A stretch of DNA of 64,000 bases. It comes from Cellulophaga omnivescoria. GTDB taxonomy: Bacteria; Bacteroidota; Bacteroidia; Flavobacteriales; Flavobacteriaceae. The stretch lies in the NCBI RefSeq assembly GCF_001999725.1, contig NZ_MDDP01000010.1, positions 310,001 through 374,000 of the forward strand. Direction: 5' to 3'. This document shows positions 12,558 through 36,190 of this stretch, piece by piece. Position numbers and translations under genes: made by a program. The notes beneath the pieces are model-generated. The model ran no database searches. It worked only from the letters and a program-made list of their open reading frames with translations, and was not told the DNA's origin. Each line of letters starts with the position of its first letter. The first letter of the stretch is position 1.

Positions 12558-12622
12558 CAAAAGAAGTGTAAAAAACAGGGTGTCTATTTATCAATTTTAC
12601 CTTTCGATAACATTATTTTAAC
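12558..12622 (-). promoter_or_regulatory. PUL operator and promoter of susC-susD
   Basis: On the minus strand, half-site 1 GTTAAAATAATGTT starts at 12622 and half-site 2 GGTAAAATTGATAA starts at 12601, 21 bp apart in direct orientation. A minus-7-like TTCTTTTG starts at 12565, 57 bp after half-site 1. The same arrangement precedes four other PUL units. This is the pattern expected of an AraC-family activator; which protein binds is inferred. Confidence 0.65.
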
Positions 12623-12737
12623 CTTTTTAATTAAAAAGGGGCTATTTTAGGGTAAAGAGGAGTATTTTGGGGTAGGTAACCGCTATAATTAATTTTTAGA
12701 GCGTTAATTGTTTCGTTTACAGCACCTAACAGTAAGC

Positions 12738-12768
12738 ATAAAAAACTCCTTAGTTGTATAAGGAGTTG
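12738..12768 (-). terminator. Rho-independent terminator of the sulfatase pair
   Basis: A 9-bp stem (AACTCCTTA / TAAGGAGTT) with a 6-nt loop, followed on the minus strand by a run of T. It lies just after the sulfatase at 12791 and separates it from susC. Confidence 0.85.
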
Positions 12769-12790
12769 GTGTTAAAATATATGTTTGTAT

Positions 12791-14272
12791 TTATTTGGGT
12801 ACTGCAAAAGTATTATTAAAAGTTGCCATTGTACTGTCTTTCCACATTTCTTGCAAATAGGTGGGGTCAAACCACAGTGGTTTTGTGTGGCTTTTACTCC
12901 ATTGTTCAGCATCGTTTACAAGCTCTTTTATTATATCTGGATGTGTTGCGCTTAAATCGTTTTTTTCACCTATATCTTCCGTAATTTTAAAAAGTTTCCA
13001 AGGTTGTCTATTAACTTTTAGGGCTTTCCATTCGTCTCTTCTCGCAGATACATCTGTATAACCTTCTCTGTGGCGCATAGCAAATAAAGTTTCTTTATTG
13101 TGTGGGCCTTCATTAGCTAATATAGATTCCCAAGCATTTTTTCCGTCTAAAATTTTATCATTAGGAACCTTTGCTTTTCCTAAATGGGCTAACGTAGGGT
13201 AAAGGTCTAAGCTTGTAATAGGAAAACTGTATTTTTCTCCTTTTGCAATATTTTTTGGCCAATACATAAACATAGGAACGCGATAACCACCTTCCCAAGT
13301 ATCTCCTTTTCTTCCATGTAATGGAAAATTGGTTGCTCCGTGGTCTGTATTTCCGCCGTTATCACTTAAAAATATAATTAATGTATTCTCTAATTGATGC
13401 GTTTCTTTTAAGGTGTTTACAATAGTGCCAACTCCTCTATCTACAGCATAAACCATAGCGGCATAAGTTCTTCTATCTTTATCTTTAATTTTTGAAAATT
13501 TTGCGATGTCTTCTTCTTTAGCTTCAAGCGGTACGTGTGGTGCATTGTAAGCTAAATACAAAAAAAACGGTTTCTTTTTATTTGAAGCTTCTTTTACAAA
13601 CCTAGATGCTTCTCTAGAGAAAGCATCAGTTAAATATTCTGTTTCTTTAACTTCTTTACCATTATGTTCTAGCGGAAGTATGTAATCTCTAATTATTTTT
13701 TTCTTAGCTTTTTTTTGTTTTTGGTACTGTGCTTGGTATTGCTCAGGAAAATAATTGTGACCACCACCTAAAAAACCATAAAAGTCTGTAAAACCTCTTT
13801 GGTTGGGATGAAACTCTTCTGTGGCGCCTAAATGCCATTTTCCAATAGCTCCTGTGTAATAGCCAGACTCTTGTAATGTTTTAGCTATAAATTGCTCTTT
13901 GGTATCAATTCCTTTGCCTAAAGATTCTCCGTTAGCAGGTAAGTTAAACTGAGAGCCTATTGTATGTGGATACCTGCCCGTTAATAACGCTGCTCTACTT
14001 GGTCCGCAAAACGGATGTGCTACATAAGCCGATGTAAATATGGTTCCTGCACTTGCTAGTCTGTCTAATTCATGTGTTTTAATATCTGTGCTGCCATTAA
14101 AACCAACATCAGAATACCCTAAATCATCACAAAGAACCAATAAAATATTAGGTTGTTCTGTTTCAGTTTTAACGTCTGTTGTTTGTGCTATATTTTTTGG
14201 TTTGTTGGTGCAGCTTAATGCAGTTAGTAAAACTGCTAATACAAGTGTCTTTGAGTGTTTATTAAAAATCAT
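12791..14272 (-). CDS. Sulfatase lipoprotein, arylsulfatase A type
   Basis: 493 residues with a lipoprotein signal (LLTALSC, Cys21). N-terminal metal ligands lie in LVLCDDLGYSDVGFNG, the formylglycine signature is C89-G-P-S-R, GAIGKWHLG follows, and FLSDNGGNTDHG is the second metal-binding block. These are all arylsulfatase (S1) hallmarks. It differs clearly from the two S1_7-like enzymes here. S1_17 or S1_19, both known from carrageenan loci, are candidate subfamilies, but I cannot decide between them. It starts 12 nt after the stop of the upstream sulfatase (14284-15936), so the two are co-transcribed, and a terminator follows. Probable role: periplasmic or membrane-bound desulfation of carrageenan oligosaccharides. 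Confidence 0.9.
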   Translation of the reverse strand: MIFNKHSKTLVLAVLLTALSCTNKPKNIAQTTDVKTETEQPNILLVLCDDLGYSDVGFNGSTDIKTHELDRLASAGTIFTSAYVAHPFCGPSRAALLTGRYPHTIGSQFNLPANGESLGKGIDTKEQFIAKTLQESGYYTGAIGKWHLGATEEFHPNQRGFTDFYGFLGGGHNYFPEQYQAQYQKQKKAKKKIIRDYILPLEHNGKEVKETEYLTDAFSREASRFVKEASNKKKPFFLYLAYNAPHVPLEAKEEDIAKFSKIKDKDRRTYAAMVYAVDRGVGTIVNTLKETHQLENTLIIFLSDNGGNTDHGATNFPLHGRKGDTWEGGYRVPMFMYWPKNIAKGEKYSFPITSLDLYPTLAHLGKAKVPNDKILDGKNAWESILANEGPHNKETLFAMRHREGYTDVSARRDEWKALKVNRQPWKLFKITEDIGEKNDLSATHPDIIKELVNDAEQWSKSHTKPLWFDPTYLQEMWKDSTMATFNNTFAVPK

Positions 14273-14283
14273 ACTCTTAATAC

Positions 14284-15936
14284 TTAGTTAAGTTGTGCTA
14301 AATTGCCTTTCCAGCCTTTGTTAAATTGTACAAGTAGCTTTTCTACAATTTCAGGATTTTCTTTAGCTATATTAATTGTTTCGTTAGGGTCGTTTAAATG
14401 GTTGTATAGTTCTATAAAAATAGGTTTTGCGTTTTTGGCTTTATAATCTTTCCAAACAATAAATCTATATTCTTTTGTACGCATAGAGTAGCCCATTAAT
14501 TTATTTTCAAACAAATCTCTATTCCATTTATCTCCTTGTTGTTTTTTTATCTTTTCTTCAACTTCTTTAATTAAAGGGCCAAATGAAGTTTCTTTCATCC
14601 CTTTAGATAATGGGTTAGCTGCCCATTCTCTTAATGCAGGTGTGGGAAACTGACTAAAAACAGCTTTTTTCCAATCTAAATTTGGGTTACTTAATAGTGG
14701 TTTAAAACTTTGTCCTTCTACTGTTTTAGGAGTAGGTACATTAACCAAGTCACATAATGTTGGGTACATATCTACCAACTCTACTAGTGCATTTGTTTTT
14801 TTGCCTTTTATTTCTTTTGGCATATTTGGAGTGTTAATTAGTAAAGGCACTCTTGTAGCAATTTCATAGTTTGTTGCTTTGCCCCAAATGCCCATATCAC
14901 CAAGGTGCCAGCCGTGGTCACTCCATAATATAACTATGGTGTTGTCTCTTTGTCCAGATTCCTCTAGGGCTTTTAACATACGTCCTATTTGTGCATCTAT
15001 ATAACTTACACAGGCTAAATATGCGTGTTTTAATTTTATAGCTTGTTCATCTGTAATATCTCCTTTTTTAGGAATGTCTGCCCTAGCTCTTAACTCAAAA
15101 GAAGCGTGTAGCCCCATTGCAGCCCCGTCTTTTGGACCTTGCTTTTGTTGAGCCAATTTTATATCATCTTCGTTATACATATCCCAGTACTTTTTAGGAG
15201 CTAACCAGTCTAAGTGTGGTTTTTTCATTCCTAATCCTAAAAAAAATGGTTTGTTAGGGTTTTTGTTAAGCATATCTTTTAAAGTTGCTATAGCAAGATC
15301 TGTGTTATAACCATCTTCATATTCATTATCAGGATAATCTGCAAACTCATAAGCCGGACCTTTACCTAGTCCATTACGTAATGCATTTTCTCCGTACTTG
15401 GCTACCATAGCAGCGCTATTTTCTTTATGCAATTTTATGTTTTCTGGTAATTTAAAGCCAAATTTCGGCTTTTTACTAGCGCTCATTTGGCTATGTGTTA
15501 CTGGCTTTCTGCTCCATGATAACTTAGGGTCGTTATATTTGCCGTGGTAAATTTTGCCTGTGTGTACGGTTTCATATCCGTTTGCCCATAATTGCTGAGG
15601 TAGTGTTATAATATCTGGGTTAGCATCTCTAAAATAGGTAAAGTTTTCTACTACGCTTATGCTTTCTGGTCTGGCTCCTGTCATTAAACTAGCTCTAGAC
15701 GGACTGCATATAGCTTCTTGGCAGTATGCATTGTTAAACTGTAGACCATTTTTAGCCAATGCATCTATATTTGGTGTAATGGCAATGTCAGAACCATAGG
15801 TGCCAAGTTCTGGGCGTAAATCATCTACAGCAATAAATAAAATATTTGGCTTTTTTTTGATTTCTTTTTTTGTCTCTTTTTGTGATTGGCAACTACTTAT
15901 AAATAAAAGTAGTAGTAATAATTGCACGTATCTCAT
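14284..15936 (-). CDS. Sulfatase lipoprotein, iduronate-2-sulfatase-like (S1_7 type)
   Basis: 550 residues with a lipoprotein signal (LFISSC, Cys16). The signature is C77-S-P-S-R, a serine variant of the CGPSR in the other three sulfatases; CxPxR is intact. AVDDLRPELGTYG and WSDHGWHLGDMG match the sulfatase at 3995-5614 closely over the whole length, so the two are paralogues. It is the first gene of the pair with 12791-14272 and lies just downstream of a PUL operator. Likely action is removal of a galactose or anhydrogalactose sulfate; the exact position attacked cannot be read from sequence. Confidence 0.9.
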   Translation of the reverse strand: MRYVQLLLLLLFISSCQSQKETKKEIKKKPNILFIAVDDLRPELGTYGSDIAITPNIDALAKNGLQFNNAYCQEAICSPSRASLMTGARPESISVVENFTYFRDANPDIITLPQQLWANGYETVHTGKIYHGKYNDPKLSWSRKPVTHSQMSASKKPKFGFKLPENIKLHKENSAAMVAKYGENALRNGLGKGPAYEFADYPDNEYEDGYNTDLAIATLKDMLNKNPNKPFFLGLGMKKPHLDWLAPKKYWDMYNEDDIKLAQQKQGPKDGAAMGLHASFELRARADIPKKGDITDEQAIKLKHAYLACVSYIDAQIGRMLKALEESGQRDNTIVILWSDHGWHLGDMGIWGKATNYEIATRVPLLINTPNMPKEIKGKKTNALVELVDMYPTLCDLVNVPTPKTVEGQSFKPLLSNPNLDWKKAVFSQFPTPALREWAANPLSKGMKETSFGPLIKEVEEKIKKQQGDKWNRDLFENKLMGYSMRTKEYRFIVWKDYKAKNAKPIFIELYNHLNDPNETINIAKENPEIVEKLLVQFNKGWKGNLAQLN

Positions 15937-15971: not shown

Positions 15972-16036
15972 CAAAATAACCTAAAAGAAGCAATAAAATA
16001 TTGGTTTCGTTTATCCGTGCCTTGCACTATTTTACC
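15972..16036 (-). promoter_or_regulatory. PUL operator and promoter of the sulfatase pair
   Basis: On the minus strand, half-site 1 GGTAAAATAGTGCA starts at 16036 and a degenerate half-site 2 GGATAAACG starts at 16016. A minus-7-like TTATTTTG starts at 15979, 57 bp after half-site 1, the same distance as at susC. The sulfatase ATG is 36 nt further on. Confidence 0.6.
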
Positions 16037-16130: not shown

Positions 16131-16184
16131 GGTAAAATAAAGTGTTAATAGGTTAATTATAGCGGTTTGTTGTACTTATTTTTG
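16131..16184 (+). promoter_or_regulatory. PUL operator variant upstream of the molybdenum enzyme
   Basis: On the plus strand, GGTAAAATAAAGTG starts at 16131 and GGTTAATTA at 16151, 20 bp apart. A perfect minus-7 box TATTTTTG lies at 16177-16184, 46 bp after half-site 1. That is one helical turn closer than at the other PUL promoters. The first gene begins at 16233. Confidence 0.5.
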
Positions 16185-16232
16185 TGTAAATTTAAAACTT
16201 AGACATCTTTACAAAACTAAATATTAAGATTT

Positions 16233-16691
16233 ATGACCAAGCTAAAAATTAATGGAGAAACACATACGATAGATGTAGATCCGGATATGCCTTTGTTATG
16301 GGCAATAAGAGACATTATAGGTTTTACTGGAACTAAATTTGGTTGTGGCAAAGGTTTTTGTGGTGCTTGTATGGTTTTAATGAATGGTAATGCAGTAAAT
16401 TCTTGTCAGTTGCCTGTTTCTGCAGTAGGAGATAACGAGTTGATTACCGTTGAGGGACAGACAGAAAATCTTCAGTTGTTACAAAAATCTTGGGCAGAGC
16501 ATAATGTTCCGCAATGTGGTTTTTGTCAGTCTGGACAATTAATAACAGCAACTGCATTGCTAAACGGTAATAGCAACCCTTCTGATGAGGATATAAATAA
16601 TGCTATGGTGCGTAATATTTGCCGCTGTGGTACATATCCGCGTATAAAAAAGGCTATAAACCATTCTGTAGAATTAAAAAACAAAGGCTAG
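16233..16691 (+). CDS. [2Fe-2S] subunit of a molybdenum hydroxylase (IorA type)
   Basis: 152 residues, the usual size for the small iron-sulfur subunit of isoquinoline-1-oxidoreductase or aldehyde dehydrogenase type enzymes. A plant-type [2Fe-2S] cluster is formed by C38, C43, C46 and C58 (FGCGKGFCGACMV). The second cluster is formed by C95, C98, C130 and C132 (QCGFCQSGQ, ICRCGTYPR). It passes electrons from the molybdenum site of the large subunit encoded immediately downstream (1 nt between genes). It has no signal peptide of its own and would be exported together with the Tat-bearing partner. An operator-like element precedes it, placing it in the PUL regulon. Confidence 0.92.
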   Translation: MTKLKINGETHTIDVDPDMPLLWAIRDIIGFTGTKFGCGKGFCGACMVLMNGNAVNSCQLPVSAVGDNELITVEGQTENLQLLQKSWAEHNVPQCGFCQSGQLITATALLNGNSNPSDEDINNAMVRNICRCGTYPRIKKAINHSVELKNKG

Positions 16692-16692
16692 T

Positions 16693-18873
16693 ATGAAAAA
16701 TGTAAAAAATGTAAGTCGTAGAAGTTTTTTAAAAGGATTAGGTTTGGCTTCAGGCGGATTAATAATTGCTTCTGGAACAACGCTTTTTATTGGCTGTGAA
16801 CCTAAAGAAGTTGTAGAGTTTAATCCTAATTTATTTGTTCAGCTTAATTCTGATGGTAATCTTATTTTGGTTGCCTCTAGATCAGAAATGGGACAAGGTG
16901 TGCGTACGTCTTTAACGTCTGTTATTGCAGATGAAATGGAGGCAGATTGGGATAGAGTAAGTATTAAACAAGCTGTAGGAGATGTTAAGTACGGTGATCA
17001 AAATACAGATGGCTCTAAAAGTGTACGTCTTTTGTATGAAGAAATGCGAAAAATTGGAGCCGCTACAAAGGCAGTTTTAATTGCTGCAGCAGCTAAAAAA
17101 TGGGAGGTTCCTGCATCAGAATTAAAAGCAGAAAACCATTTTGTTATAAGTAATAGTGGTAAAAAAATAGGATTTGGAGAACTTGTAGAAATCGCTAAAA
17201 CTATAGAAGTTCCCAAAGATGTTGTTTTAAAAGATCCTAAAGATTTTAAATTTATTGGTAAATATTTACCAAGCAAAGATGTAGAAAACTTATCTAACGG
17301 AAGTGCTGTTTTTGGTTTAGATAAGCGTTTAGATAATATGAAATTTGCAGCAATAAAACGTTGCCCAGTTACTTTTGGTACAGTAAAATCTTTTGATAAA
17401 ACTGAAGCCTTAAAAATTGCAGGTGTTATAGATGTTGTAGAAATCCCTAGGGTAGAAAAACCTTTTGGACCATTAGGAGGTGTAGCTGTTGTTGCTACAA
17501 ATACTTGGGCTGCTTTTAAAGGTAAAGAGGCTTTAAAAGTAGAGTGGGATTTTGGTGCAAATGCTAATTATGATACTGAAGAGTATATGAAACAGATAAC
17601 AGCTAATGTACAGAAAAAGGGAAAGGTTGCTAAAACGGTAGGTAATGTAGATTCTGCATTTAAATCTGCAACAAAAACTATAGAAAGTACATACCAATTG
17701 CCACATTTAGTGCATACACCTATGGAGGTGCCTAATGCTGTTGTTTGGGTACAAGAGAATACGTGCGAAGTTTGGGCTCCAACACAAGAACCACAACGTA
17801 CAAGAACAGAAGTTAGTGCTTTTTTAGAAACAGATGAAAAAAATGTAACTGTTAATGTTACGTTTTTAGGAGGTGGTTTTGGTAGAAAATCCAAGCCAGA
17901 TTATGTGGTTGAAGCTGCTGCGGTATCTAAGGCAATTAATGCTCCTGTACAAGTTGTATGGTCACGTGAAGATGATATACAACATGGTTATTACCACACC
18001 ATTGCAGCACAATATATGAAAGGTAGTTTGGATAAAGACGGAAAAGTAACTGGTTGGTTGCATCGTTTTGCGTTGCCTTCTATAGCGTCTACTTTTGCTC
18101 CGGGAACTGTAGATCCTGCTCCTTTTGAAGCTGCTAGTGCTACAAACGTACCTTTTGAGATTCCTAATATGCAGGTAGAAACAGGAGAAGCACCAGCGCA
18201 TGTTAGAATTGGTTGGATGCGTTCTGTTATAAACATACCACACGGTTTTGCTATTAATGTTTTTGCTGATGAGTTAGCTAATGAAGCAGGAGTAGATCCG
18301 CTTGAGTTTAGATTAAATCTTATTGGTAGTGACCGCATTGAAGATACTAAAAATGAATATAAGTATGATACTGCTCGTTTAAAACACGTGCTAAAGCAGG
18401 CTGCTAAAAATGCAGATTGGGGTAAAAAATTACCCGAAGGACATGCAATGGGACTTGCAGTGCATTATAGCTTTTTATCTTATGTTGCGTCTGTGGTTGA
18501 GGTATCTGTTGTAAATAATAAAGTAAAAGTACACAACATACATTCTGTTATAGATTGTGGTTTGGCTGTAAATAAAAATACAATTACGGCACAAATGGAA
18601 GGTGCTGCTATTTTTGGTATGTCTTTAGCCTTTTACGGTAAAATTACAGCTAAAGATGGCGCTATAGAACAAACTAATTTTGGTGATTACCAAATGTTAC
18701 GTATGCCACAAGCACCAAACATACATATAGAAATTGTAGAAAATAACGAAAAACCAACAGGTGTTGGTGAGCCAGGGGTACCAGTTATTGCACCAGCTAT
18801 TGTAAATGCAATTTTTAAAGCAACTGGTAATAGATATAGAACATTACCGCTTAAAGATTATAAATTAGTTTAA
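16693..18873 (+). CDS. Molybdopterin-binding large subunit, aldehyde oxidase type (IorB-like)
   Basis: 726 residues. The N-terminus has a Tat motif (SRRSFLKGLG) and a possible lipobox (FIGC, Cys35), so it is likely periplasmic and perhaps membrane-attached. Molybdopterin-binding blocks include EMGQGVRTSL, FLGGGFGRKS and VGEPGVPV, the last carrying the catalytic Glu (E693) of the xanthine-oxidase family. There is no flavin domain, so electrons would leave through the small subunit to an acceptor not encoded nearby. Substrates of this family are aldehydes and N-heterocycles. In this locus an aldehyde sugar such as 3,6-anhydrogalactose is an attractive but unproven candidate. A terminator follows. 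Confidence 0.88.
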   Translation: MKNVKNVSRRSFLKGLGLASGGLIIASGTTLFIGCEPKEVVEFNPNLFVQLNSDGNLILVASRSEMGQGVRTSLTSVIADEMEADWDRVSIKQAVGDVKYGDQNTDGSKSVRLLYEEMRKIGAATKAVLIAAAAKKWEVPASELKAENHFVISNSGKKIGFGELVEIAKTIEVPKDVVLKDPKDFKFIGKYLPSKDVENLSNGSAVFGLDKRLDNMKFAAIKRCPVTFGTVKSFDKTEALKIAGVIDVVEIPRVEKPFGPLGGVAVVATNTWAAFKGKEALKVEWDFGANANYDTEEYMKQITANVQKKGKVAKTVGNVDSAFKSATKTIESTYQLPHLVHTPMEVPNAVVWVQENTCEVWAPTQEPQRTRTEVSAFLETDEKNVTVNVTFLGGGFGRKSKPDYVVEAAAVSKAINAPVQVVWSREDDIQHGYYHTIAAQYMKGSLDKDGKVTGWLHRFALPSIASTFAPGTVDPAPFEAASATNVPFEIPNMQVETGEAPAHVRIGWMRSVINIPHGFAINVFADELANEAGVDPLEFRLNLIGSDRIEDTKNEYKYDTARLKHVLKQAAKNADWGKKLPEGHAMGLAVHYSFLSYVASVVEVSVVNNKVKVHNIHSVIDCGLAVNKNTITAQMEGAAIFGMSLAFYGKITAKDGAIEQTNFGDYQMLRMPQAPNIHIEIVENNEKPTGVGEPGVPVIAPAIVNAIFKATGNRYRTLPLKDYKLV

Positions 18874-18954: not shown

Positions 18955-21060
18955 TTATTCCCAAACAACTGGTAAAAACACCGTCATTTCGCTCTCTTTT
19001 TCATTATTTCTGTTAGACCATGCATAGTATGGTACAAATGTAGTGTTGTACTTTTTCCATTGTGGCTTGTTTACTTTGTGATACATTTTATCTGTTTTAG
19101 CAGCGTCTTTACGTAATAAAACATTACCTGTTATAGCAGATACACCACCTAAAAAGTCTGGTCTATATTCTGATTTTAATTGAGAAGCATCACCTTTAAT
19201 AAATACATCTAAAATACTAGTGTTTTTTGGTAAATCTGCAGATTCTACACAATATACAAGCGGACCTCTTTTTATAGCTACTTGATTACGTACTTCTTCA
19301 ATACGTTCGTGGCCTTCAACAAAATTTATATCTAATGGCATAGCAATGCGTATAACGTCACCTTTTTTCCATTCACGATTAATTATGGCAAATTCACCGG
19401 CTTTTACGGTAACACCAGCATCTTTATCATTTACAAAAACTTTTGTGCCTTCTGCCCAATCAGGAATTCTAACAAGCATATCAAAAGGAGTATTTTTACA
19501 TTCTTGCATTGTTATTTTAACATCTCCATTCCAAGGGTAAGCGGTCTCTTGCTTTAATTTTATTTTAGACCCATCTGTAAGTGTTGTATTTAAAGTGTTG
19601 CCTCCATAAAGGTTTACAGCAATACCATTTTTAGATTTACTATATGCCCAACCAGATACTTTTGCAATAGTACGTACCAGGTTTGGAGGACAACAAAAAC
19701 AGTCTAAATAAGCTTGTCTTGTTGGAAATTCTGTATTCATTTTACTGTAATCTCTAGAGCCGTGTATAACTCTAAGTGGGTTGGCATAGTAATACCTGTC
19801 TCCTTCTAAATTAATGCCAGATAAAGCACTGTTGTATAGTACGGTTTCCATAATATCTGCATATTTAGATTCGCCATGTACACCTAACATACGATAGCTA
19901 AACATAGAGTTACAAACATTAGCACATGTTTCATTATACGCGGTCATATTAGGCATCATATACTCGTCAATAAAGCCTTCTTCTATCTTATCTCTGTTGG
20001 TAGATGCTCCGTAGTGAGTTTGACCCACGGCACCAGTTACATACATTTTTTTTAGTGCAACATTCATCCATAATTTATCTAAAGCATCAATTAAAGCTTG
20101 TTCTCCTGTTTCTGCATATACATCTGCTGCGCCTGCATAGTAGTACAATGCTAAAACGGCGTGGCCAACTGCTTCATCAGACTTACGTAAAGGAGTGCGT
20201 TCTTGTACCATATCTCCAATAGGATATCCTTTAGTTTCTGGCGTTTCTGCAACTTTATAAGCACCTCTATTGTTTATAAATTTTTCAGCTAACTCTAAAT
20301 AGCGTTTGTCTTTTGTGGTTCTATACAATTCTACCAAGCCCATTATTTGGGTTTGATTAAAACCAAAACGGCCATAACGCTCATCATCTGTCATAAATAA
20401 CGAGTATAGTAAATCTGCGTGTTTAACGGCAATTTCTAAAAAATTGGTCTGTCCTGTAATTCTGTAGTGAATACAAGCGCTGGTTAATAAGTGACCAGAA
20501 TTGTACATTTCATGAAACTTTCTGTTTTCATACCTAGACCTATCTTTGTTTAGTTGTATTTGTGTTTGTAGGTAGCCATCTTTTTCTTGTGCTTTCCCTA
20601 TAATGTCTATATAGCTATCTATTTCTTTTAGTAAAGCTTCATCTTTGTTTTGTGCATAAACATACATTGTGGCTTCCATAAATTTATAAAAGTCGCCATC
20701 ATGCCAATGCATTCCTTTGTGCTCACCATCTTTTAAGCCAGCTGCAATTTTAAAGTTGTTAAGTGCGTGGCCTGTATCACCAGTTAATAAACTGCGCATG
20801 TACGGAACCATTTTTGTTTCGGCAATTTTAAACTTATCTGCCCAGAAGCCTTCTGTCCATTGGCAATCGCCCATATCTATACTTTTAAAAGCAACATGCG
20901 GACTATTAGCATTGTTAATAATACCTGCATTAGAATCTAGATTTAAAGCCAAATCTTTACTTTCTGTATTTGCAGTAACTACCGTGTCTTTTGTTTTTTC
21001 TTTTTGGCCGCAGGATGCTAGTACCAGTGCGCTAAACGCCAAAATTGTGATGTGTTTCAT
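18955..21060 (-). CDS. GH127-family glycoside hydrolase, lipoprotein (probable 3,6-anhydro-galactosidase)
   Basis: 701 residues with a lipoprotein signal (LVLASC, Cys17). It matches GH127 (former DUF1680). Y-N-E377-T-C379-A and C454-F-C456-C457-P-P-N correspond to the Glu and zinc-binding and nucleophilic Cys motifs known from bifidobacterial beta-L-arabinofuranosidase. GH127 also contains alpha-1,3-(3,6-anhydro)-D-galactosidases of carrageenan loci, and the four anhydrogalactose-catabolism genes nearby favour that activity. It would release 3,6-anhydro-D-galactose from the non-reducing end of desulfated oligosaccharides. It lies 19 nt downstream of the sulfatase gene at 21080 and ends the unit. 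The family is firm; the specificity is inferred from context. Confidence 0.9.
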   Translation of the reverse strand: MKHITILAFSALVLASCGQKEKTKDTVVTANTESKDLALNLDSNAGIINNANSPHVAFKSIDMGDCQWTEGFWADKFKIAETKMVPYMRSLLTGDTGHALNNFKIAAGLKDGEHKGMHWHDGDFYKFMEATMYVYAQNKDEALLKEIDSYIDIIGKAQEKDGYLQTQIQLNKDRSRYENRKFHEMYNSGHLLTSACIHYRITGQTNFLEIAVKHADLLYSLFMTDDERYGRFGFNQTQIMGLVELYRTTKDKRYLELAEKFINNRGAYKVAETPETKGYPIGDMVQERTPLRKSDEAVGHAVLALYYYAGAADVYAETGEQALIDALDKLWMNVALKKMYVTGAVGQTHYGASTNRDKIEEGFIDEYMMPNMTAYNETCANVCNSMFSYRMLGVHGESKYADIMETVLYNSALSGINLEGDRYYYANPLRVIHGSRDYSKMNTEFPTRQAYLDCFCCPPNLVRTIAKVSGWAYSKSKNGIAVNLYGGNTLNTTLTDGSKIKLKQETAYPWNGDVKITMQECKNTPFDMLVRIPDWAEGTKVFVNDKDAGVTVKAGEFAIINREWKKGDVIRIAMPLDINFVEGHERIEEVRNQVAIKRGPLVYCVESADLPKNTSILDVFIKGDASQLKSEYRPDFLGGVSAITGNVLLRKDAAKTDKMYHKVNKPQWKKYNTTFVPYYAWSNRNNEKESEMTVFLPVVWE

Positions 21061-21079
21061 ATATTAAGTTGAGTTATAG

Positions 21080-22534: not shown

Positions 22535-22572
22535 TTTATTAAAAATCACTGTTAAAAATGAGTGAATTGGAA

Positions 22573-22637
22573 CAAATTAAATGAAAAATACGTTAATGAG
22601 ATTAATGCATATTACCTTAGTGTAGCATTATTTTAAC
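22573..22637 (-). promoter_or_regulatory. PUL operator and promoter of the sulfatase-GH127 unit
   Basis: On the minus strand, half-site 1 GTTAAAATAATGCT starts at 22637 and half-site 2 GGTAATATGCAT starts at 22616, 21 bp apart. A minus-7-like TTAATTTG starts at 22580, 57 bp after half-site 1. The sulfatase ATG follows 39 nt later. Confidence 0.65.
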
Positions 22638-23007: not shown

Positions 23008-23024
23008 AATTTTAAGTTTAACTA

Positions 23025-26258
<3,234 letters not shown>

Positions 26259-28316: not shown

Positions 28317-28335
28317 AGTTTAGTCTTGTTGTGGT

Positions 28336-28980: not shown

Positions 28981-29917
28981 ACTGTAATAAAATTTTCTTT
29001 TGACCTAACAATAGAGCCTTCTCTAGAACTTTGTCATCTAAGAGAATTAATTGTTTTGGATTAATTATTTGTTTTAACGCTAACTTATATAGGCTAAAAA
29101 CTGGGTCTGGAGCCACTAAAAATATGTTTTCTGTAGTTTGCTGTAAGTAGCTAATTTCATCGCCAATTAAAAGTCCACTTAAAAAATAATAGTTTTCTTC
29201 TTTTGTTTTTGTTTGAAGTAAATCTTTAGCTCTAATTGAAAATAAACTAGCACTAAATTGCCCTTGCAGTCCAAGTGAAACGCCTTCTAAGAAAGGTTTC
29301 TCTAATACAGTTGACGAGGTAGTACTAACCGAATTAACTAAAATGCTTTTTTTAGAAAGCACCTCAAATAACTCACCAGTCATATAATTTTTTAGTTCTG
29401 TGTAAACTTCATTATTGTATGTAATGTGTTTGCTGTGTGTTCCGGGTAGTAAAAGAATCCCTTTTTTGTATTCTTTTAATTCTTGTTCTAATCCTATGGC
29501 TTGTATTTCTTCGCCACGCATCATTCCAGAACTAGTTTTTGCGCCAGAAATTAAAAGTATTTCTAAATTATTTTTTAAAACTAAATGCTTCCAAATTAAA
29601 TTATTTCCGCAAGCATTAAGAGGAAAATCTGCATAGTTAAGCTCAAATAAACCAATATTAGCAGATGCCATACCTGCAGCAACAATTATATGTTTTTGGT
29701 GTTCTTTAGGCAAATTAGATATCTGTTCTTTTAAGTAGTCTGCAAAAAATAGAGTTTGTTCCTTATCACTTTGCTTTAAAAATTTTTCATAAAGCAATTT
29801 TATACCACAATATGTTTTGTGTTCTGCTAAAATTGTTAATGTAGTTGTTTCTACAACTCGTAATCTAAAATTAGAAGTTCCCCAATCACAGCTAATAAAG
29901 TAGTTTGGTAATGCCAT
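28967..29917 (-). CDS. dauC: 2-keto-3-deoxy-D-galactonate kinase
   Basis: 316 residues of the DgoK family. The N-terminal ATPase motif CDWGTSNFRLR and LLPGTHSKHI (phosphate and sugar binding) are typical. It phosphorylates 2-keto-3-deoxygalactonate to feed the aldolase encoded next. It abuts the aldehyde dehydrogenase gene on one side (no spacer) and overlaps the aldolase gene on the other, so the catabolic genes form a tight operon. The assignment is good; naming as dauC rests on the pathway context. Confidence 0.9.
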   Translation of the reverse strand: MALPNYFISCDWGTSNFRLRVVETTTLTILAEHKTYCGIKLLYEKFLKQSDKEQTLFFADYLKEQISNLPKEHQKHIIVAAGMASANIGLFELNYADFPLNACGNNLIWKHLVLKNNLEILLISGAKTSSGMMRGEEIQAIGLEQELKEYKKGILLLPGTHSKHITYNNEVYTELKNYMTGELFEVLSKKSILVNSVSTTSSTVLEKPFLEGVSLGLQGQFSASLFSIRAKDLLQTKTKEENYYFLSGLLIGDEISYLQQTTENIFLVAPDPVFSLYKLALKQIINPKQLILLDDKVLEKALLLGQKKILLQYDNK

Positions 29918-31366
29918 TTAGTTTAGTGCTTTTGTGACTCTTTTTTTAATTAAGTAATCATCTAACGCATAGGTAGAACAGTCTACACCAATACCACTAT
30001 TTTTAACACCGCCATGTGGCAAGTAAATATCGTACTTTACTCCGTTTAATTGCACTTCTCCAAACTCTAACTTATCAGAAAAGTATTGAAGAGTTTCTTT
30101 GTTTTTAGAAAACACATAAGAGGCCAAACCTGCGTCTGTATTGTTTGCGTACTCTATAACTTCTTCTTTAGTAGAAAAAGGAACAATAGTAGCTACTGGC
30201 CCAAAAATTTCTTCTTGTAAAATTGGAGCTTCAGGGTTATTTAGACTTACTACAGTAGGTTCAAAATAATAACCAGGTTGCTCTAACGCTTTTCCTCCAC
30301 ATTCTATTTTGCCGCCTTCTGCTACTGCTTGTTTTAGTATGCGTTCTACTTTTGTTACAGATTGTTTGTTGGTTAATGGACCCATTTCTGGTTTGTTTTC
30401 TTTACCAAAACCAATGGTTGTGTTTTTAAATTTTTCAACCATACCTTCTGTAAACTCTTTAAGAACAGAAGTGTGTATGTAAAACCTGTTTGGAGCAACA
30501 CATATTTGCCCTGTGTTTCCAACCTTTAATGCAGCGCCTATATTTATGGCTAACTCTAAATCTGCATCGTCAAAAACAATAAAAGGAGCATTGCCGCCAC
30601 ACTCCATACTGTATCTTTTTATAGATGTTTTACTACTTTGTTCTATTAACTTTTGTGCTGTTTCTGTAGAGCCAATCATAGTAATTAGTCTCGGTATTTT
30701 ACTTTCGCATAAAGGTATGCCTACGTTAGAAACATCACCACAAATTACAGTAACTACACCTTTTGGAAAATTAATCTCGTGACAAATTTCTCCTATAATG
30801 TATGCGGATAAAGGTGAGAATTCTGATGGTTTTAGTATAATGCTGCAACCAGCTGCCAGTGCTGGACCAAGTTTAAAGCCTAGATTTAATAGTGGAAAAT
30901 TGTAAGCTAAAAAAGCAACAGCAACACCTAGTGGTTGTGAAACAATATGGTGTTCATGAGTACCATCTTTATCTTCTATTTCTATATTGGTACGTTTTAC
31001 AATTTCTTCTGAGTAATATTTTAGTGAATTTGTAATACTTGTAAGGTCTTCTTCGCTTCCTTCCCAAGTTTTTCCCATTTCATGCATAATACTACTGCGT
31101 AGTAAATCGCTATTTTCTATTATTTTAGTTCTTAATTTGTCTATCCAGTTTAAACGTTCGGTTATAGGTAGGTTAGACCAGTATTTAAAACCTTCCTCAG
31201 CGGTTTCTAATGCATACTCAGTATCTTCTTTGCTTGCCCAAGCAAGGTGAGCAACAGCTTTTTCATCAGCAGGGCATATTACATCAAAAGATGCTCCATT
31301 AGAAGCATCTCTTAACTCGCCATTTATGTACAGTTTTTTATTACCGAATTTCAAATCTTTTTTCAT
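29918..31366 (-). CDS. dauA: NAD(P)-dependent aldehyde dehydrogenase, probable 3,6-anhydro-D-galactose dehydrogenase
   Basis: 482 residues from the ATG at 31366; an upstream in-frame ATG at 31387 would lengthen it by 7 residues and deepen the overlap with the previous gene. It belongs to the ALDH superfamily: Glu255 in YSMECGGNAPF (general base) and Cys289 in NTGQICVAPNR (nucleophile), with LKPSEFSPL in the cofactor site. In this operon it would oxidise 3,6-anhydro-D-galactose to 3,6-anhydro-D-galactonate. It is cytoplasmic. The start overlaps the cycloisomerase gene by 26 nt. The family is certain; the substrate is inferred from the complete pathway around it. Confidence 0.88.
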   Translation of the reverse strand: MKKDLKFGNKKLYINGELRDASNGASFDVICPADEKAVAHLAWASKEDTEYALETAEEGFKYWSNLPITERLNWIDKLRTKIIENSDLLRSSIMHEMGKTWEGSEEDLTSITNSLKYYSEEIVKRTNIEIEDKDGTHEHHIVSQPLGVAVAFLAYNFPLLNLGFKLGPALAAGCSIILKPSEFSPLSAYIIGEICHEINFPKGVVTVICGDVSNVGIPLCESKIPRLITMIGSTETAQKLIEQSSKTSIKRYSMECGGNAPFIVFDDADLELAINIGAALKVGNTGQICVAPNRFYIHTSVLKEFTEGMVEKFKNTTIGFGKENKPEMGPLTNKQSVTKVERILKQAVAEGGKIECGGKALEQPGYYFEPTVVSLNNPEAPILQEEIFGPVATIVPFSTKEEVIEYANNTDAGLASYVFSKNKETLQYFSDKLEFGEVQLNGVKYDIYLPHGGVKNSGIGVDCSTYALDDYLIKKRVTKALN

Positions 31367-32507
31367 TGTAGTGTGTTTCTTTATCAAGGTATTTTTCTAA
31401 CTCATCCATATTTACATCTACACCTAAACCAGGAGTGTTAGGAACGCATAATAGTCCGTTATTAATGGTAAGGTCGCACTTTGTAACAATATCTCTTAGG
31501 GCATTTTCAGATCTGTCTAATTCCATAGTTGGCAGATCGTTATACATTCGGCCTGGGTTTTTGTCTAGGTTGCCAACAAAATGGGCGGCAGCACTAATTG
31601 CAATCCAAGTGCCCCAAGAATGTGGTACAATATCTTTATTAAATACTTGAGCTAAGGTTGCAATTCGTTTGGCTTCTGTTAAGCCCCCAGACGCACAAAT
31701 ATCTGGCTGAGCAATATCTACGCATTCGTTTTCTAAAAGTCGTTTAAAACCAAACTTTAGATACTCACATTCGCCACCGGCAATAGGAATAGACGTGCTT
31801 TTTCTTAGTTTTTTATAACCTTCATAATCTTCTGGAGAAACGGGCTCTTCAAACCAAGAAATATTATACTTCTCTACTTTTCGGCAAAGTTCTATTGCTT
31901 CTTGATAACTGTAAGCGTGGTTTGCATCAATCATCAATCTAATGTCATCTCCAATAGCTTTTCTAATTGCGGCTACATACTTTACATCTTCATTAATACT
32001 TAAGCCAACTTTCATTTTTATTGCTTTAAAACCTTGAGATTTATAGAGTTTGGCTTCGTTTATTAAAACTTTTTCTAGGTCATCTACTCGTGTAAAATAT
32101 AAGCCAGTAGCATATGGTTGTATGGTAGGGTTTTTTAAACCGCCTAAAAGCACTGCAACGGATTTATTTAGTAGTTTTCCCTTAATGTCCCACAAGGCAA
32201 CATCAATAGCGCTTAAAGCAGCTTGTAAACTTCCACTTCTGGCGTAATCCATAGATCTTCGGTACATTTCTTGCCATAATACCTCGTTTTCTATAGCCTT
32301 TTTGCCTACAATAAAAGGTTTAAAAAATTCTATACCGGCTTTAATTACACCCGCAGGGCCATAGCCTTCTCCCCAGCCATATGTTCCGTCTTCTAATGTA
32401 ATTTTAACTAGGCATATTTTTCTGGTGTTGTATTGCCATTGCGAAAAATAAAAGGGTGTATCCAACTCGTGGCTAATTACGTAAGGCTCTATGTTTTTTA
32501 TTTTCAT
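31341..32507 (-). CDS. dauB: Enolase-superfamily sugar-acid cycloisomerase, probable 3,6-anhydro-D-galactonate cycloisomerase
   Basis: 388 residues from the ATG at 32507 (MKIKNIEPYVIS, the usual family start); an upstream ATG at 32549 is less likely. The enolase-superfamily catalytic set is visible: KAIKMKVG (base Lys pair), MIDANHAYS (Asp), SWFEEPV (Glu), GGECEYLKFG (Glu) and PHSWGTW (His, general base). This fits the mandelate racemase/muconate lactonising group. It would open the 3,6-anhydro ring to give 2-keto-3-deoxygalactonate. It is the second gene of the operon after the RhaT-like permease. The substrate is inferred from neighbours. Confidence 0.87.
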   Translation of the reverse strand: MKIKNIEPYVISHELDTPFYFSQWQYNTRKICLVKITLEDGTYGWGEGYGPAGVIKAGIEFFKPFIVGKKAIENEVLWQEMYRRSMDYARSGSLQAALSAIDVALWDIKGKLLNKSVAVLLGGLKNPTIQPYATGLYFTRVDDLEKVLINEAKLYKSQGFKAIKMKVGLSINEDVKYVAAIRKAIGDDIRLMIDANHAYSYQEAIELCRKVEKYNISWFEEPVSPEDYEGYKKLRKSTSIPIAGGECEYLKFGFKRLLENECVDIAQPDICASGGLTEAKRIATLAQVFNKDIVPHSWGTWIAISAAAHFVGNLDKNPGRMYNDLPTMELDRSENALRDIVTKCDLTINNGLLCVPNTPGLGVDVNMDELEKYLDKETHYNEKRFEIR

Positions 32508-32592
32508 ACCAAAGTGGATTTTTAGACACCTAAGAGATTTGATAAACAATTAGGGGTGTATTTTTATAATTATGGTTAATGTGTGTTACAAT

Positions 32593-33606
32593 CTAATAAT
32601 TGGCATATCCTAAAATGCATATAGCAGTTATAAGTATTGCTAGGCCTCCCATTAATAGTTTAAAAGGACCATTAGCATTTTTCCATTCGCCTGCTCTATA
32701 TGCCCAAAAATTACTTATTATAAGAGCTAAACCTAGTAGAATTGGCCAGCCAATAACAGGACCTAAATCTCCCATTAAGGCTGCGCCTTGCCCGTATACA
32801 CCAAGAGCAGCAAACCAGAATATCCCAGTAGCAATTGCCCATATGTATGCTTTTTTGCTGTTTTTTACTTTAAAAGAGCTCCAAGTGTTATTTTTAACTA
32901 ATCTAAAAATTGCATAGCCACCATTCATTGCAAAAGCGCCAATTAAAACAACAACCCATGAAGCTAAACTTGCATTTTGTGTGCTAACATCATAATTATC
33001 TACGGCTATTTTTGCTACAGGAGCTGCATTAGAAAAACCTACATTTAAAAATGCAGATAAAACACCAGATGCAACTGCAATTAAGACACCCAGTTTTATA
33101 GATTTGTTAGTTGTGTTAGAATCGTTACTGCTTTTAAGTTTATCTCTTTTAACACCAGCAACAGCTGTAACGGCCACACCAATTAAAAGTAAAAGTACGC
33201 CTGTTAAAATAATAGGAAAAGAAGGTTCCGAAAATGCACCTTCAATTTGAAATAGCGGAATAATGCACCCCATAGAAGCAGCTAGTCCCATAACTATACC
33301 GTATGTAATAGATATTCCTGTTTTTTCTACACTAACACCAAAAAGAATACCTCCAATTCCCCATAAAAAGCCGTATAATGCAGCGGTCCAGAACGTGCTA
33401 GAATCTGTAGCTGTAATAACGCTATACAAATCTGGAATTACAATAAATGCCCAGATTACAGGAACTGCAATCATAGCAACAAAAGATTGTATTAGCCACC
33501 AAGCTTCCCATTTTAATGGTGCTATGTATTTCATTCCTAGTCCAAAAGTTCCTTGAAAAAAGCTCGCAAATATGACTAAGATAATTGCTAATGAATAAGT
33601 GTTCAT
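32593..33606 (-). CDS. RhaT-family sugar:proton symporter
   Basis: 337 residues with about ten hydrophobic membrane segments and the L-rhamnose/H+ symporter (RhaT) layout (FFQGTFGLGMKYIAPLKWEAWW at the start; GPVIGWPILLG near the end). It would carry a monosaccharide across the inner membrane. As the first gene of the dau operon and directly behind a PUL operator, the likely cargo is 3,6-anhydro-D-galactose or galactose rather than rhamnose; that is inference. No rhamnose-catabolism genes are present in the window. Confidence 0.85.
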   Translation of the reverse strand: MNTYSLAIILVIFASFFQGTFGLGMKYIAPLKWEAWWLIQSFVAMIAVPVIWAFIVIPDLYSVITATDSSTFWTAALYGFLWGIGGILFGVSVEKTGISITYGIVMGLAASMGCIIPLFQIEGAFSEPSFPIILTGVLLLLIGVAVTAVAGVKRDKLKSSNDSNTTNKSIKLGVLIAVASGVLSAFLNVGFSNAAPVAKIAVDNYDVSTQNASLASWVVVLIGAFAMNGGYAIFRLVKNNTWSSFKVKNSKKAYIWAIATGIFWFAALGVYGQGAALMGDLGPVIGWPILLGLALIISNFWAYRAGEWKNANGPFKLLMGGLAILITAICILGYANY

Positions 33607-33678
33607 TTAATGAGTGGTTTTTGTGATAGTTGATTTGAATAATGAAGCGCAAATAATTTACTTTTCATTTGTATATCA

Positions 33679-33743
33679 CAAAGAAACCTTAATATAGAAT
33701 GTGATTATTGAAGAATTTTACCTTACAGCAGCACTATTTTACC
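33679..33743 (-). promoter_or_regulatory. PUL operator and promoter of the rhaT-dau-GH129-GH2 operon
   Basis: The clearest copy. On the minus strand GGTAAAATAGTGCT starts at 33743 and GGTAAAATTCTT at 33722, exactly 21 bp apart with eight identical leading bases. A minus-7-like TTTCTTTG starts at 33686, 57 bp after the first half-site. The RhaT-like gene begins 73 nt downstream. Confidence 0.7.
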
Positions 33744-33769
33744 CTTTAAGCACAAAATTGACAATTGAG

Positions 33770-35074
33770 TTAGTTGTTAAAAAATGTATATGCTATAAAA
33801 ACCATTAATCCGCCAGATAAAGAAACAATTGCGGTTAACAGGCTAAAGGATTTTAGCAGTTTTGGGACTGTTATATGATGTATTTCTTTAAATAGCCAAA
33901 AGAAACTGCTATTTACGTGTATAACTCCTAATGAACCTGTACAAATTGCAGCAGTTGTAAAGGTAGGATCCAGTGTGCCATTACTAATTAGTGGTGCAAC
34001 TATAGATGCAGTAGTTATTAGTGAAACGGTAATGGAGCCAGTTACAGTTGTAAAAAGCATGCTAAGTAAAAATGGCACAATTATACCCATTGAAGAGATA
34101 GAGTCTGTGTTTGAGAAAAGGGAGCTAACAATACCAGTATCTTTTATAACCTGACCAAAAGCGCCGCCTGTGCCTGTAATTAAAATAACTATAGCGGTTT
34201 TAGCGCCAGCTGTATTTAAGTATGAATTTAACTTAGTAGAAAATGATTTTTTTTCTAGTAGCGGTAATGCAAAAATAATCCCTATTAACAGTGCCCAAAT
34301 GGGGTTTTTAATGAACGCGACAAAGGCGTTTTCTTGTTTTATTATTGTACCAACAGACATTAATACAAGAGGTATAAGTAGGGCTGCAAAAGGTAGAATT
34401 TTTTTGTATCCTGTTAGTTTCTTTTTTGTAGTGCTCTGCAGCTTATTGGTATCTATATTATTGCTAGTTTGTAAATTTTTTTTATTGATTTTTAGCCACA
34501 TTAAACACCCAGCTATAGCGGCAATAGCTACAATAACGTTTAAGGGTATAATTTTACCTACACTTATATTAAATGCGGATGCCACTGCTAATGGCCCTGG
34601 TGTTGGTGGTATTAGAGCGTGCGCCACAGTTAAGCTAATTGCTAAGGAGAGGCCTAGTACTAATATGGAGTGTCCTGACTTTTTTGACAATACGTGCAAT
34701 GTGGGTAGTAGTGTTAAGTAAGCAACATCCATAAAAACTGGTATTCCTATTAAAAAGCCTATTATGGCCATACTTAGGGGTAAATACTTTGTGCCAAAGA
34801 GGGCTATAATACTATCGGCTATTAAGTCAGATCCTCCGGTGTTAGACAAAATCTCTCCAAGTAAGGCTCCAAATAAAATTATTAGACCAATCCATTTTAA
34901 GGTGTTTCCAAAACCATTTAAAAGGCTTTCTGTTACGCTTGTTACGTTACCGCCTGTTGCTAAGCCAAGTAATAGTCCAAAAACAAGTAAAGCGGGTATG
35001 GGATGAACCTTAAATACAGTAACGGCTATAATTAATAAAGCAATACAAACAGTTAGCGTAATTAAAGCGAGCAT
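33770..35074 (-). CDS. GntP-family sugar-acid:proton symporter
   Basis: 434 residues, very hydrophobic, with 12 or more membrane segments. Typical GntP features include PALLVFGLLLGL near the start, HALIPPTPGPLAVA, and the C-terminal GVIHVNSSFFWLF. The family imports gluconate and related aldonic acids. Within this locus an anhydrogalactonate or galactonate import role fits, which would complement periplasmic oxidation of anhydrogalactose by the molybdenum enzyme. That link is inference. It has its own operator and promoter-like element just upstream and appears monocistronic. Confidence 0.87.
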   Translation of the reverse strand: MLALITLTVCIALLIIAVTVFKVHPIPALLVFGLLLGLATGGNVTSVTESLLNGFGNTLKWIGLIILFGALLGEILSNTGGSDLIADSIIALFGTKYLPLSMAIIGFLIGIPVFMDVAYLTLLPTLHVLSKKSGHSILVLGLSLAISLTVAHALIPPTPGPLAVASAFNISVGKIIPLNVIVAIAAIAGCLMWLKINKKNLQTSNNIDTNKLQSTTKKKLTGYKKILPFAALLIPLVLMSVGTIIKQENAFVAFIKNPIWALLIGIIFALPLLEKKSFSTKLNSYLNTAGAKTAIVILITGTGGAFGQVIKDTGIVSSLFSNTDSISSMGIIVPFLLSMLFTTVTGSITVSLITTASIVAPLISNGTLDPTFTTAAICTGSLGVIHVNSSFFWLFKEIHHITVPKLLKSFSLLTAIVSLSGGLMVFIAYTFFNN

Positions 35075-35101
35075 AGTGAGGTGTGGTTATAAATAATAAA
35101 A

Positions 35102-35166
35102 CAAAAATAGGCGTAATATTTCTTTAATTGTGCAACGTATTTACCTGTTAGTAGCATTATACTACC
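35102..35166 (-). promoter_or_regulatory. PUL operator and promoter of the GntP-like permease
   Basis: On the minus strand GGTAGTATAATGCT starts at 35166 and GGTAAATACG at 35145, 21 bp apart. A perfect minus-7 box TATTTTTG starts at 35109, 57 bp after half-site 1 and 28 nt before the ATG. Confidence 0.65.
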
Positions 35167-35169
35167 ATT

Positions 35170-36057
35170 TTAAATTAGAGTGGTTATTTTTTTGTTATAC
35201 TTTTCCATATACTCAGATGGTGTAACTTTCATTAATGCTTTAAATTGCCTGTTAAAGTTAGTGAGTGTATTAAACCCAGATTGGTAGCAGACTGTAGAAA
35301 TTTGCATTTCCCCCTCTATTAAAAGTTTGCAAGCGTGCCTTAATCTAATTTCATTAAGGTATTGCGTAAAAGATTTATGGGTTCTTTTTTTAAAGTATCT
35401 GCAAAAGGCATTTGGAGTCATAAAAGCAATAGAGGCAACTTCTTCTAGCTCTATTTTTTTGTCAAAATTTTCAGTTAAAAATAAAATTACTCTTGCCATA
35501 CGGTCTTTTTCGTTTTTGTTGTATGTGTTTGTTATAACCTCTGAGCATAAAGGTTTATAGTTTTCACTTACAGATAAAATATCTAAAATTTTTAACAAGC
35601 CAATTATTCTAGATAAGCCTTTGTTCCCCACTAAACCTAGTATGTGGTTATGAGCTAAGTATGTTGCAGCCTTAGAAAATTGAAGCCCCATATTGGCCTT
35701 TTTAAAAAGAACTTGTAATTTTTTTGCTTCTGCCAAATCTAAAAAATCAGATCCTAAAAAATCATTTTCAAATTTAATAACTATAAGGTTTACGGCTTCG
35801 TCTTCTAGCTTGTCTGCATAATATTCTTTATGGTTTTTAAATAAGTGTGGTACGTTGCTTCCTATTAAATACAATTCCCCTGGCGCAAAATTTCCTATAG
35901 AGTTGCCAACATAACGAGTGCCTGTGCTTTTTATAAAATAGATAAGTTCTAGCTCTTTATGAAAATGCCAATTTTGCTCAATGCAAGGCATTCTATCTTG
36001 GCGAGCTAGGAAAGAGTTTTCAGGCCTTTTCTCTGTTTGTTTGTATGTTAACTTCAT
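35170..36057 (-). CDS. AraC-family transcriptional regulator with cupin sensor
   Basis: 295 residues. The N-terminal half is a cupin-like ligand-binding domain (WHFHKELELIYFIKSTGTRYVG, NFAPGELYLIGSNVPH). The C-terminal 100 residues are the double helix-turn-helix of AraC/XylS proteins (ELEEVASIAFMTPNAFCRYF, then ISTVCYQSGFNTLTNFNRQF and VTPSEYMEKY). It marks the end of the PUL. The direct-repeat operators in front of the PUL units have the 21-bp spacing typical of AraC-family sites, so this is the prime candidate for the activator that reads them. The inducer may be a carrageenan-derived sugar. Confidence 0.92.
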   Translation of the reverse strand: MKLTYKQTEKRPENSFLARQDRMPCIEQNWHFHKELELIYFIKSTGTRYVGNSIGNFAPGELYLIGSNVPHLFKNHKEYYADKLEDEAVNLIVIKFENDFLGSDFLDLAEAKKLQVLFKKANMGLQFSKAATYLAHNHILGLVGNKGLSRIIGLLKILDILSVSENYKPLCSEVITNTYNKNEKDRMARVILFLTENFDKKIELEEVASIAFMTPNAFCRYFKKRTHKSFTQYLNEIRLRHACKLLIEGEMQISTVCYQSGFNTLTNFNRQFKALMKVTPSEYMEKYNKKITTLI

Positions 36058-36159
36058 AGCAGTTTAATTTAATTTCGTAATAAAAAAATAAGTTTTTATT
36101 TCTGAAGTGGTTATAAATATAAAAAATTAACCTGATATATGTTAATTATTATTTTTTTA

Positions 36160-36190
36160 GGTAAAATAGTGCTAATAGGTGTGTTTTTGT
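36160..36190 (+). promoter_or_regulatory. Lone PUL operator half-site near araC
   Basis: GGTAAAATAGTGCT at 36160-36173 on the plus strand is identical to half-site 1 of the rhaT operon. The following GGTGTG lies only 18 bp away, and no minus-7 box sits at the standard distance. It points away from the araC-type gene, about 100 nt upstream of it, so autoregulation is possible but unproven. Confidence 0.45.

Follow-up and report, generated by a model that had tools for sequence, protein, structure and literature searches.

The locus studied here raises the question of how several transcription units of a polysaccharide utilization locus (PUL) are brought under common control, and by which protein. 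It lies in a stretch of 64,000 nt from Cellulophaga omnivescoria (contig NZ_MDDP01000010.1, positions 310,001 to 374,000), hereafter the window, and its gene set matches what is known from Zobellia galactanivorans, namely the carrageenan PUL ZGAL_3145-3159 and the susCD pair of that organism (PMC5698469). An earlier note had proposed that five promoters of this PUL share a direct-repeat operator at a fixed distance from a promoter box, and that an AraC-type protein encoded in the PUL reads it. The five-site observation was confirmed, and we put at roughly 0.86 the probability that the sites are the operator of this protein, CgrA, acting as an AraC-family activator.

Five sites of fixed spacing in the window

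All five sites were found where the note had placed them, on the minus strand with half-site 1 beginning at 12622, 16036, 22637, 33743 and 35166. Counting the first base of half-site 1 as 0, they have in common G at 0, TA at 2-3, ATA at 6-8, TG at 10-11, a GnTAA half-site at +21 and a TnnnTTTG box that begins at +57 in each of them (TTCTTTTG, TTATTTTG, TTAATTTG, TTTCTTTG, TATTTTTG). Same-orientation half-sites 21 bp apart, as present in all five, are the direct-repeat geometry of AraC-type regulators. The spacing of 21 bp claimed in the note was correct for the set as a whole; the value of 20 bp given for 16036 was not, since half-site 2 there, GATAAA (GATAAAC, one change from GGTAAA), also starts at +21.

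The operator and −7 box of susC and susD (7461-12382, minus strand, as are all genes and sites in this paragraph) span 12558-12622, with half-site 1 at 12609-12622, half-site 2 at 12594-12601 and TTCTTTTG at 12558-12565. The corresponding elements of the sulfatase pair (12791-15936) occupy 15972-16036, with GATAAACG as half-site 2 at +21, and those of the sulfatase and GH127 genes (18955-22549) occupy 22573-22637. A presumed operon of a rhaT-like symporter gene, dauB, dauA, dauC, dauD, dagB (GH129-like), a GH2 gene and an open reading frame (ORF) of 106 aa (22687-33606) has its site at 33679-33743, and the GntP-family permease gene (33770-35074), by place the counterpart of ZGAL_3158, has one at 35102-35166, just beyond the end of cgrA (35170-36057). 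With a matrix trained on 37 sites from relatives and none from the window, these five score 38.4, 37.2, 39.4, 42.4 and 29.7, respectively.

Scored with this relatives-only matrix on both strands, the five sites are the top five positions of the window (29.7-42.4), and the next position reaches 10.1. Among 21 window gene starts, the best value of the 16 without a claimed site is 5.8; no full-score site (5.8 at most) precedes the other starts inside the PUL operons, and the sulfatase and FAD-dependent oxidoreductase genes adjoining the PUL (2037-5614, minus strand) lack an operator (best scores −7.9 and −17.6). Simpler patterns were too unspecific as search tools in this 3.8-Mb genome: the half-site alone with up to two mismatches gave 296 matches against 194 for the reversed control, and the 27-bp double site with up to three gave 96 against 72. 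Chance matches are rarer once TTTG is required as well: half-sites plus TTTG with up to two mismatches gave six matches, namely the five sites (0, 0, 0, 0 and 1 mismatches) and one other with two mismatches, against five for the reversed control, whose mismatch numbers are not given.

A tentative, weak site (16131-16195, plus strand; score 5.8) lies ahead of divergent molybdo-enzyme genes; its half-site 2 is at +20 and it lacks the −7 box at +57. The earlier note mentions neither this site nor an inverted half-site at 36160. A weak site occurs at the matching place in a genome of the same genus (G370), and across both the spacing is 20 bp or unclear. The PUL encloses the molybdo-enzyme genes themselves (16233-18873, plus strand), and homologs of these genes occur in the cgrA blocks of G370 and G334.

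The regulator CgrA and the conservation of its presumed operator

In the window, Pfam recognizes SusC, SusD, four sulfatases, GH127, GH2, a DUF5696/GH129-like protein, RhaT, GntP and an AraC-family regulator, together with a KDPG-type aldolase, a DGOK kinase, an aldehyde dehydrogenase and an enolase-superfamily protein. The regulator gene, cgrA (35170-36057, minus strand), codes for the presumed operator binder, with a cupin-like N-terminus and a double helix-turn-helix (HTH). The C-terminus matches HTH_18 (78.5 bits) and HTH_AraC (37.5 bits), both above their cut-offs and indicative of the double HTH, and it agrees with solved AraC-type DNA-binding domains by profile and by fold. In the structure model (mean pLDDT 79.1, pTM 0.63) helices fill residues 180-292 and beta-strands residues 15-95. 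Cupin_2 scored 19.9 bits, under its cut-off of 27.2, and Foldseek matched the N-terminus to the RhaR regulatory domain (TM 0.66 by target); as modeled, this part would be a cupin-like ligand/dimer domain of the AraC/XylS type.

Proteins at least 73 % identical to CgrA occur in 11 of 397 family genomes including that of the window, with the ten others at 73-88 %, whereas the match that follows them by score is 42 % identical and identities below the orthologs reach 44 % at most among the matches listed. The protein of genome G399, taken as Z. galactanivorans DsijT, matches with 540.9 bits, and gntP, rhaT or dau genes lie near cgrA in nine of the ten relatives. By identity and gene neighbourhood, the AraC-type gene of the window is an ortholog of Z. 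galactanivorans cgrA (ZGAL_3159).

Blocks of 50-60 kb around cgrA from the ten relatives were scanned with a matrix built from the five window sites, leaving the −7 box unscored. At a threshold of 18 there were 26 matches, against none in two rounds of Markov-1 shuffles, and 24 of them carried TTTG at +61, with a mean of 0.13 per other offset; at a threshold of 12 the matches numbered 43 (shuffles 11), 32 of them with TTTG at +61. GnTAA followed 25 of 50 half-site-1 matches at +21, and three at most at any other offset from 14 to 39. An alignment of 43 sites, picked by score and position and including some low-scoring rows chosen with the −7 box in view, so that the unbiased counts are those of the ten-block scan and of the relatives-only ranking in the window, has G invariant at 0 and 21, TA invariant at 2-3 and G at 11 in 39 rows. 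TTTG is found at 61-64 in 37 of the 43, while at positions 57-58 TA occurs 13 times and TT 27 times; the box therefore reads TnnnTTTG and not the strict TAnnTTTG of the Bacteroidetes sigma promoter. No TTG of a −33 element is present at a fixed place between offsets 26 and 49, where no single offset has it in more than 4 of the 43 rows.

Across all 11 CgrA genomes, the full pattern with up to two mismatches yielded 76 matches and the reversed control 16. The earlier note had named a spread of matches over unrelated DNA as the outcome that would speak against it; instead, 49 of the 51 matches with at most one mismatch lie in cgrA-side PUL blocks or, elsewhere, ahead of dauB or of genes for SusC-type proteins, sulfatases, GH127 or permeases, three of these target genes (L137, L139, L140) being named by N-terminal similarity only. 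The remaining two (G289 C44 and G286 C1) precede a DHDPS-type gene that is followed by a gene of 525-527 aa. This DHDPS-linked site recurs in three genomes (G289:C44:110559, G286:C1:609615 and G203:C24:7886; L142, L146 and L149) ahead of a first gene of 304-313 aa, with the family assigned by Pfam in G289 (L142) only, and probably belongs to another AraC-type regulon.

Operators adjoin cgrA in 10 of the 11 CgrA genomes. In the eleventh, G129, cgrA (C19:114753) and the operator-bearing gntP, dauB and GH127 genes (C3:64277-73403) are on different contigs, which makes action in trans likely. Some match to the pattern is present in 249 of the 397 family genomes, most of them resembling their own control by eye, where places are given in part and counts are not summed. 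Genomes without a CgrA ortholog (e.g., G130:C1:1109172, G319:C12:65539 and G328:C1:652986) repeatedly show a variant form, GATAATATAGTA, in which RGATAA follows at an unchanged distance and TTTTA stands where the −7 box would be.

Another 22 of the 397 genomes hold dauB homologs of 52-61 % identity, and among these G334 has CgrA; G180 has a 73 % dauB homolog and no CgrA ortholog. Nineteen of the 22 dauB loci without a CgrA ortholog were examined as stretches of 11-45 kb (those of G002, G004 and G067 being left out), and they carry AraC proteins 35-41 % identical to CgrA. Two of these loci were scanned for families and both have GH127 and GH16, with sulfatases in one; SusC/SusD-sized ORFs lay outside the scan. 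The operator matrix without the −7 box, at a threshold of 12, gave 54 matches in the 19 loci (shuffles 6.3), with TTTG at +61 in 28 of them (shuffles 0; next offset 3), and 13 loci have at least one site of the same spacing. Site presence varies with the recognition helices: 12 of 13 loci with a 'type 2' regulator (NSFCRFFKK ... NFNKQFK) have a site, compared with one of six others (Fisher 0.003), the types having been grouped by eye after the scan and the loci differing in length. This co-variation is the best hint from sequence that the AraC protein may be the binder. In the G145, G072, G213, G323 and G036 loci the grammar takes a variant form, GGTAAwATwGrTTA-N7-GGTAA, with TTTAG replacing TTTG; in G072 this variant is situated about 150 bp before the dauB homolog.

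Upstream of cgrA itself there is a single inverted half-site, GGTAAAATAGTGCT (36160-36173, plus strand; score 21.6), 102 bp before the start and pointing away from the gene. The arrangement recurs in all 12 CgrA genomes examined: the top half-site match within 400 bp upstream faces away from cgrA, at 72-140 bp from the start matching that of CgrA in the window, although the cgrA ORFs of G289 and G334 could start further upstream. Scores range from 6.6 to 21.6; seven of the 12 exceed the 95 % value of the half-site background (12.0; G011 on the line) and three the 99 % value (19.4), a background that contains true sites. No second half-site was seen beside it by eye. The sequence at 36160 was rejected as an activator site for the downstream plus-strand genes, with neither GnTAA at +21 nor TTTG at +61, and with RuvC and HemW encoded by the second and third of these genes; it was read as a site of cgrA because the counterparts in other genomes accompany cgrA. 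By analogy with the araO sites, we would guess that the inverted half-site serves the control of cgrA itself. Induction of cgrA is modest, being 2.3 on kappa-carrageenan (PMC5698469).

Sites and published expression in Zobellia galactanivorans

Genome G399 was taken as Z. galactanivorans DsijT on account of its kappa-carrageenase (660.6 bits to 5ocr_A, residues 29-307) and a gene order that fits the published Table 1; locus tags were assigned by place and family, with the sulfatase and SusC-type genes checked. Of nine pattern matches with up to two mismatches, seven, which are all those with none or one, precede genes of the published carrageenan stimulon (PMC5698469). To score the sites we used a matrix from 31 non-Zobellia sites, which gave 33.5 for ZGAL_181 (cgsB2), 34.2 for the GH82 gene at the place of ZGAL_1973 (cgiA3), 25.6 for ZGAL_3147, 39.7 for ZGAL_3150, 38.9 for ZGAL_3157, 27.1 for ZGAL_3158 and 40.5 for ZGAL_3581. 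Over 2,354 background windows of the G399 stretches the 99th percentile was 9.6, and every higher value is one of the sites listed here; no full-score site (−4.1 at most) precedes six gene starts inside presumed operons, and cgrA scores −13.0.

Published expression data follow the strong sites with one exception. 3,6-Anhydro-D-galactose (D-AnG) induces six of the seven units with a strong site (log2 3.3-7.1, first gene) and none of the four without (PMC5698469). Over 11 units, the score correlates with D-AnG induction (Spearman 0.78, p 0.004; Fisher 0.015), compared with a Spearman value of 0.13 for induction by kappa-carrageenan; these units count ZGAL_3629-3638 as one, with its best stretch score of 9.6 and the expression values of ZGAL_3637, and exclude genes inside presumed operons as well as cgiA2, absent from Table 1. 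D-AnG as effector was suggested by the authors of that study (PMC5698469); the link between D-AnG induction and the operator is our addition to it, drawn from a small number of units.

The earlier note expected operators before endo-carrageenase genes elsewhere, which held in part. In Z. galactanivorans, cgiA3 has a strong site and the genes of cgkA (24.6, with a weak half-site 1) and at the place of cgiA1 (19.0, without G21 in half-site 2) have weaker ones, while that at the place of cgiA2 has none (−2.3). In the genome of the window, three endo-carrageenase genes were found, two GH82 and one kappa-type GH16, and only one of the three, the GH82 gene at C34, is preceded by a correctly oriented site, itself weak (13.9); the GH82 gene at C6 has none, and the best match near the kappa-type gene (13.0) is on the opposite strand, so they were discarded as clear members of the regulon. 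The GH82 gene taken as cgiA3 (L152 7522-9541; G399 C1:2297522-2299541, minus strand) shows no ATG near its start and one in-frame stop; ZGAL_1973 is listed as induced in Table 1 (PMC5698469).

A candidate mechanism, its rivals and its meaning

We propose that two CgrA DNA-binding domains would contact the half-sites GnTAAAATARTGY and GnTAA, whose starts, 21 bp or two helix turns apart, would place two monomers on one face of the DNA. Half-site 2 starts 36 bp before the Bacteroidetes-type −7 box TnnnTTTG, at about the position of the −33 element. Since no TTG occupies a fixed place in this region, CgrA probably replaces the −33 element by touching RNA polymerase, in a class II-like activation. 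The sites, their phase, their conservation and their target genes are what the sequences show; CgrA binding and polymerase contact, D-AnG or a product of D-AnG as effector, and autoregulation of cgrA are the parts of this model that we infer.

Control by the AraC-type protein draws support from its orthology to CgrA, from the co-location of gene and sites and from the geometry of the sites; in Z. galactanivorans, moreover, growth on carrageenans is slower after deletion of cgrA (PMC5698469). The sites could nevertheless be a real operator bound by another regulator, either a different AraC-type protein or a hybrid two-component system, with CgrA acting indirectly. This we consider improbable, although the genome has four matches to CgrA at E 1e-30 (CgrA included), direct repeats of about 21 bp likewise serve AraC-type hybrid two-component systems in Bacteroides (PMC3878776) and deletion of cgrA is leaky (PMC5698469): operators adjoin the gene in nearly all genomes that have it, site presence tracks the regulator type in the distant PULs, and no hybrid two-component gene was found among the 27 of 64 window ORFs scanned. 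It is very unlikely that the block is a mere AT-rich core promoter with an upstream element, as the low G+C content of the window (33.6 %) and a block that is half A/T could suggest, given the invariant G at 0 and 21, the G at 11, the low scores before the 16 other window starts and the failure of shuffles to yield the block. Independent resemblance of five AT-rich promoters has a negligible probability; the half-site alone is indeed common by chance, but the ranking by the relatives-only matrix, the fixed +57 phase and the conservation in relatives refute this explanation.

Several observations weigh against CgrA as the activator at these sites. Deletion of cgrA in Z. galactanivorans delays and reduces growth on carrageenans but does not abolish it (PMC5698469). 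Six of the 19 related PUL loci lack a full site, and related sites exist in genomes without a CgrA ortholog (matches against control: G237, 8 and 3; G213, 8 and 2; G184, 9 and 2). The second carrageenan-induced PUL, ZGAL_3629-3638, has no site, the best score being 9.6 in a 60-kb stretch identified by two sulfatases, GH28 and a SusCD pair, so that another regulator must exist. The gene cgiA3 has a strong site but a D-AnG induction of 0.1, which refutes the rule that a strong operator occurs only at D-AnG-induced genes, and ZGAL_3151-3154, presumed to be in the ZGAL_3157 operon, are not induced by D-AnG in the published data (PMC5698469). Clear sites are also missing before the endo-carrageenase genes found in the genome of the window. 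Finally, the carrageenan literature searched, including PMC5698469, PMC5613140, PMC6262041 and PMC9296495 with supplements outside the scope, yielded no binding, footprint or transcript-start data for CgrA sites.

A broader possibility, which we hold as tentative and rather doubtful as a whole, is that a flavobacterial clade of CgrA-like AraC activators shares this phase-locked grammar of half-site, +21 half-site and −7 box at +57, that the lone inverted half-site tunes the regulator gene and that the carrageenan regulon has two tiers. Full sites would then confer D-AnG induction on uptake and intracellular steps, and degraded sites (cgkA, cgiA1) would depend on polymer-derived signals.

In Escherichia coli, AraC binds a 21-bp direct repeat at araI1-I2, with the proximal half-site adjoining the core promoter and a further site near the regulator gene; the CgrA case differs in half-site sequence and sigma factor, and looping and repression are features of AraC. 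Tandem sites with a periodicity of about 21 bp have likewise been predicted for AraC-type hybrid two-component systems and RhaR of Bacteroides (PMC3878776, PMC3870299), where the regulator class or the sugar is another and, as far as these sources were covered, no fixed distance to the −7 box is stated. XylRA of a marine Vibrio xylan locus is similar in its AraC-type DNA-binding domain, its AT-rich direct repeats before several operons and its monosaccharide effector, tested by electrophoretic mobility shift assay, and differs in its LacI-type sensor domain, its gammaproteobacterial host and its sugar (PMC12125979). The box TAnnTTTG is cited as a Bacteroidetes promoter element (PMC10309648). 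Closely related, too, is the carrageenan regulon of Z. galactanivorans with CgrA, with orthologous PUL genes and regulator, where the operator precedes most units of Table 1; the main text of PMC5698469 uses 'operator', 'direct repeat', 'consensus' and 'upstream region' 0 times, and no CgrA operator was found in the literature named above. Direct repeats of 21 bp of the AraC type are therefore already known in Bacteroides, and the CgrA operator appears to be new.

CgrA is known to matter for growth on carrageenan, and the operator proposes where it acts. With it, membership in the regulon can be tested from sequence wherever CgrA is encoded, and endo-carrageenase, sulfatase and SusCD genes dispersed over the genome are tied to the PUL; its absence flags genes expected under another regulator, such as ZGAL_3629-3638 and cgiA2. 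The 65-bp sites are also candidate inducible promoters for marine Flavobacteriia.

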